From a virus, in IMG/VR virus record IMGVR_UViG_3300017951_000062, positions 1 to 32,192 of that record: DNA of 32,192 nt; one strand, 5' to 3'. Shown piece after piece: positions 13,450 to 13,521 of the stretch (the first letter of the stretch is position 1; every line of letters begins with the position of its first letter). The position numbers and the translations under genes are program-made. The notes below the pieces were generated by a model. It was not told where the DNA came from. It made no database searches and saw nothing but the letters and a program-made list of their open reading frames with translations.

Positions 13450-13521
13450 TTACTTGTTAGCGATGTACATAGTTACTTCGAAACCAAATCTCATTTCTTC
13501 ATATGATGGCTTATTCCACAT
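13450..13521 (-). CDS. pqqA: PQQ precursor peptide PqqA
   Basis: A minus-strand frame encodes a 23-residue peptide opening [10 protein letters not shown] and ending [13 protein letters not shown]. Bacterial PqqA peptides are 22-24 residues, start MW-KP and end G-E-V-T-M-Y; here Glu 15 and Tyr 19 occupy exactly the residues that PqqE and its partners cross-link to make pyrroloquinoline quinone. GAGGAG at 13534-13529 lies 7 bases before the ATG, an excellent ribosome binding site, and the terminator at 13407-13430 follows the stop. No pqqB, C, D or E is in this window, so host enzymes would have to process it. It is a stand-alone single-gene unit. I consider the identification strong; activity is inferred. 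Confidence 0.9.
   Translation of the reverse strand: [23 protein letters not shown]

Follow-up and report, generated by a model that had tools for sequence, protein, structure and literature searches.

Among the closest described systems is Lake Baikal virus VP_266, a T4-like virus with a predicted Methylophilaceae host for which the PQQ precursor gene pqqA was proposed in 2020 as an auxiliary metabolic gene (PMC7678222), and viral pqqA is also listed in a survey of auxiliary metabolic genes from a reservoir (PMC13188868). The accessible part of the VP_266 paper contains no statement that other methylotroph phages share pqqA, and a search of open-licence papers, exclusive of preprints, found no further reports of viral pqqA. 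The first-pass annotation of the DNA studied here had been uncertain whether the gene was on record for other marine phages; what is on record concerns a freshwater T4-like methylotroph virus and the reservoir survey.

The window analysed here is a stretch of 32,192 nucleotides (IMG/VR record IMGVR_UViG_3300017951_000062), and like VP_266 it comes from a T4-like aquatic virus encoding PqqA. VP_266 was assembled from a freshwater metagenome and has a methanol dehydrogenase gene as well, whereas the window pqqA stands alone within 32 kb. With bacterial PqqA (PF08042/TIGR02107) the window peptide shares its length, W2, P5, R11, the GFEVTMY core, Glu15 and Tyr19. It differs from the PqqA of a Betaproteobacteria MAG by the substitutions S6, E8 and K23, and in being phage-borne and away from pqqBCDE.

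The pqqA gene and its T4-like setting

The gene occupies positions 13450–13521 on the minus strand, opposite to its neighbours and outside any listed gene, and a stop codon ends its translation after 23 residues. As the first-pass annotation had proposed, the product is a PqqA: it scores above the cut-offs of two curated family models, with 43.0 bits (E 4e-11, cut-off 21.1) against Pfam PF08042 and 48.9 bits (E 3.9e-13, cut-off 20) in an end-to-end match to the NCBIfam PqqA equivalog TIGR02107. The translation likewise bears out the placing of the two key residues, E15 and Y19, which stand in the PqqA register with the E-x-x-x-Y spacing of the GFEVTMY core. When all six frames of the entire 32-kb record were searched, PqqA matched with an E value of 1.3e-11 and no second match appeared, which excludes a chance match for the window pqqA. 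A PHROGs search with the window peptide gave no match; as the PqqA family is absent from PHROGs, this does not count as evidence against the assignment.

The expression signals described beforehand were also recovered. Read on the minus strand, the ribosome-binding site GAGGAG (13529–13534) precedes the ATG by 7 bases (minus-strand letters TTGAGGAGTATACACATG). The proposed two-way terminator is acceptable as a prediction: the palindrome AAAAAGGGACTTAGGTCCCTTTTT at 13407–13430, which starts 19 bases past the pqqA stop and can form a hairpin of 10–12 bp, has a folding energy of −15.1 kcal/mol (z −3.1) on one strand and of −13.6 kcal/mol (z −3.5) on the other. Such a bidirectional intrinsic-terminator-like hairpin would close both pqqA on the minus strand and the gene at 12809–13315 on the plus strand. 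A sigma-70-like promoter for pqqA at 13565–13593 on the minus strand (TTGAAT-17-TACAAT, 9/12) is a candidate only, since sigma-70-like sites occur in the window at about the chance rate. tRNA and Rfam searches returned no matches.

The order of genes is gp45, gp44, two tandem peroxiredoxins, gp62, regA, some 9 kb occupied largely by small genes, and pqqA, followed by endolysin, hsp20, gp43, uvsX and gp41. The translational regulator RegA (5029–5421, +), Hsp20 (14252–14746, +) and the gp43 family-B DNA polymerase (14999–17503, +) belong to this T4-like context, and in other T4-like records pqqA is again found between regA and gp43. Judged by the T4-like genes on both sides of pqqA, the source contig is a T4-like phage, and the same gene content assigns pqqA to the replication (early) region and not to the late region. 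The earlier placing of the gene between late genes thus has to be corrected, the sole late-type neighbour being the divergently oriented endolysin at 13650–14117 (+; phrog_894). The convergent neighbour at 12809–13315 (+) encodes a 168-residue protein with a hydrophobic, signal-peptide-like N-terminus and no PHROGs match; the protein encoded at 11768–12358 has the same two properties, and on our reading of its sequence it resembles a small outer-membrane beta-barrel. The tandem peroxiredoxin-like (Redoxin/AhpC-TSA) genes at 3273–3875 and 3877–4467 are inserted between gp44 and gp62, while at the loci L283–L286 a related peroxiredoxin gene adjoins the same endolysin instead.

Occurrence in cultured phages, IMG/VR and relatives

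Searched by tblastn against 50,697 phage records, the window peptide matched phages with Methylophilales hosts, namely Venkman, P19250A, MEP301, MEP401, MEP402 and four Melnitz isolates, together with one Manatee Spring podovirus and two records named 'Acinetobacter phage MD-2021a'. The one of the latter two that was inspected (CAKLQF020000010.1) was rejected as a phage example: it is chromosome, with a pqqABCDE operon beside ppk, and its listing among phages is a mislabelling. A 2023 paper names three earlier OM43 phage isolates (Venkman, MEP301 and Melnitz) and describes MEP401 and MEP402 as further ones; counting the LD28 phage P19250A too, all published isolates known to us of phages that infect the methanol-consuming OM43/LD28 bacteria carry pqqA. 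In the isolate records inspected, the gene is either unannotated or lies beneath a hypothetical CDS called on the opposite strand (Melnitz), and it is never labelled pqqA; in Melnitz-1 the overlying call is gene 151, 'hypothetical protein' (MZ577095.1, 74848–74943; 5961–6056 in our locus L186). The Melnitz and MEP401/402 genome papers, searched for pqqA, do not mention it. These isolate phages share with the window a full-length orphan PqqA, and in Venkman and MEP301, as in the window, pqqA runs opposite to both flanking annotated genes. Their peptides, however, are mostly of another sequence kind, whereas the window peptide is of the IANK kind. The peptide of P19250A is identical to the PqqA of three small 1.3-Mb genomes, with 64–69 of 72 bases shared.

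A DNA pattern coding for GFEVTMY detected at least 119 loci in IMG/VR, every listed one translating to a full PqqA, and further patterns raised this set to at least 165 contigs. To these come at least 120 more contigs with an alphaproteobacterial-type PqqA, of which at least 119 have the N-terminal Trp in place. This second type was first met in a relative of the window phage (G383, 23.2 bits; locus L457, G383:C1:6900–6956) and is found from L458 onwards, an example being MWCTPKIKEISVGLEINCYACAEI; the contigs (at least 119) have a mean GC of 35 %, and some carry terminase genes. Among the sequenced phage records it had no match. A terminase model matched 19 of 50 sampled records, nearly all of them pqqA-bearing and mostly longer ones. 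Apparently unreported so far are the breadth of viral pqqA, its occurrence in every published OM43/LD28 phage isolate and the set of alphaproteobacterial-type genes.

As the first pattern fixes GFEVTMY and thereby forces Glu15 and Tyr19, it is unable to test these two residues, and a second pattern that leaves codons 15 and 19 free was used for this reason. All 129 viral matches obtained with it in IMG/VR encode Glu and Tyr at these positions, Tyr19 by both TAC and TAT. Over 146 distinct viral sequences pN/pS amounts to 0.17 for residues 2–19, a figure pulled downwards by the residues that the patterns fix, and to 0.32 for residues 2–12, which the first pattern leaves free. Ribosome sites of the AGGA/GGAG type precede 173 of 174 viral pqqA genes. 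The pN/pS values argue that viral pqqA is maintained by selection at the protein level. The first-pass annotation had suggested looking for the same peptide in related phages, and had named a lack of model matches together with loss of Glu15/Tyr19 in relatives as grounds against PqqA; there are many carriers, the models match and both residues are always kept.

The position of the gene differs between phages. Eleven other T4-like contigs have pqqA near regA, hsp20, endolysin or gp43, as in the window, although in differing slots and on the same strand as the neighbours, and the pqqA second closest to the window copy by DNA (85 %, locus L102) adjoins a major capsid gene, the capsid and tail-tube identities being our reading of the sequence. 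Among the 50 nearest-relative records by uvsX, gp43 or endolysin, most of which are fragments, only three encode PqqA, so that pqqA is not core in the lineage of the window phage; two of these three have the endolysin in common at 86 % identity, with PqqA elsewhere in the genome. A fixed linkage to gp43 and a fixed linkage to the endolysin were both considered and rejected, as pqqA was present in the flanks examined of none of the 80 best relatives of either gene. Overall, the distribution looks like that of a moron-type gene, often gained and lost and yet kept under selection.

Proposed role and alternative readings

We regard it as probable that the phage carries a functional pqqA at this locus, and that the gene most likely serves as an auxiliary metabolic gene in a small stand-alone (moron-like) cassette. 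PQQ synthesis uses up one PqqA per PQQ and its enzymes are catalytic, so that of all pathway components the peptide alone needs constant remaking. Upon phage shut-down of host transcription, the peptide would be the first part of the PQQ pathway to run short. Translated during infection, the phage peptide would be bound by host PqqD, cross-linked between Glu15 and Tyr19 by host PqqE, and trimmed and finished to PQQ by host PqqB/PqqC, after which the cofactor would be loaded into periplasmic PQQ-dependent dehydrogenases such as the XoxF methanol dehydrogenase. A 72-base peptide gene could in this manner keep PQQ, and hence respiratory energy from C1 substrates, flowing, and from the sequence evidence such phages probably top up the host PQQ precursor during infection. 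The reliance on host PqqB–E that had been suggested at first fits the outcome of a PqqE search, which found none in the vicinity of 285 viral pqqA loci but detected PqqE near 20 of 35 chromosomal copies used as control.

It is unlikely, in our judgement, that the peptide acts as a decoy or regulator that titrates PqqD/PqqE or a pqq-sensing step instead of serving as a PQQ precursor. PqqD binds PqqA ahead of modification, and an excess of peptide from the orphan phage copies could occupy this chaperone; a pure decoy would, however, need neither Glu15 nor Tyr19, both of which are kept throughout the unforced search (129 of 129 copies), and the viral peptides match host-type PqqA, some of them identically. 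We consider it similarly unlikely that viral pqqA is a functionless host fragment, recently captured or decaying, or that transducing or host DNA was mistaken for viral. The variable position and strand of pqqA between phages, its absence from most near relatives and the closeness of the P19250A gene to host-type copies in sequence would fit such an origin, but over 146 distinct sequences pN/pS lies well below 1 and the ribosome sites are intact; moreover, pqqA occurs in cultured phage genomes, no pqqE is found at the viral loci, and T4-like genes flank the window copy on both sides. A chance short ORF, compatible with only 23 codons on the opposite strand outside the listed genes, has negligible probability given the six-frame E value of 1.3e-11, the full-length equivalog match and the homologous genes in other phages.

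Probable host and possible implications for infected methylotrophs

The functional reading of viral pqqA has a parallel on the host side. Methylophilaceae carry 3–12 pqqA copies, usually with one pqqBCDE set (PMC4109929), and the small 1.3-Mb streamlined-methylotroph-like genomes contain three scattered pqqA far from the single pqqE above the family cut-off. Multiple pqqA per pqqBCDE suggest, on gene content, that peptide dosage may matter: hosts with many pqqA copies and one pqqE multiply pqqA alone, and the phages do likewise. Three Burkholderiales genomes (G194, G120 and G077) have 5–7 pqqA copies each. A companion enzyme gives the pathway no support, since a gene of the methanol-dehydrogenase family was present in only one of 50 pqqA-bearing viral records (G313). 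This 72-kb record, which contains locus L043, has an intact methanol/ethanol-type PQQ dehydrogenase gene at 34049–35731 (608 bits); its own pqqA, at 41887–41943, lies about 6 kb away.

The marine methylotroph proposed as host by the first-pass annotation is plausible, but the window peptide resembles the IANR type found in other Burkholderiales more than it does the OM43-like type, being three substitutions away from the PqqA of Betaproteobacteria MAGs and seven from OM43-like PqqA. From this peptide similarity, the host is likely a methylotroph or other PQQ user of Burkholderiales-like lineages, and OM43 itself is not indicated as the host of the window phage.

Beyond the single locus, we lean towards the view that precursor-only supply, i.e. 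PqqA without the enzymes, is a convergent strategy general among aquatic phages whose hosts use PQQ, spread over several phage groups with two host-type peptide families (beta/gamma and alphaproteobacterial), and that it has mostly escaped notice since genes of 23 codons are passed over by gene callers. Phage annotation has a blind spot for short-peptide genes, and as cultured phages carry pqqA unnoticed, the idea is directly testable. Cyanophage psbA resupplies a protein of fast turnover, and resupply by phage pqqA can be likened to it. If expressed, pqqA would be a minimal auxiliary metabolic gene, in which 72 bases could sustain a whole cofactor pathway through its sole stoichiometric ingredient, and it would link methanol oxidation by streamlined aquatic methylotrophs to their infection by phages.
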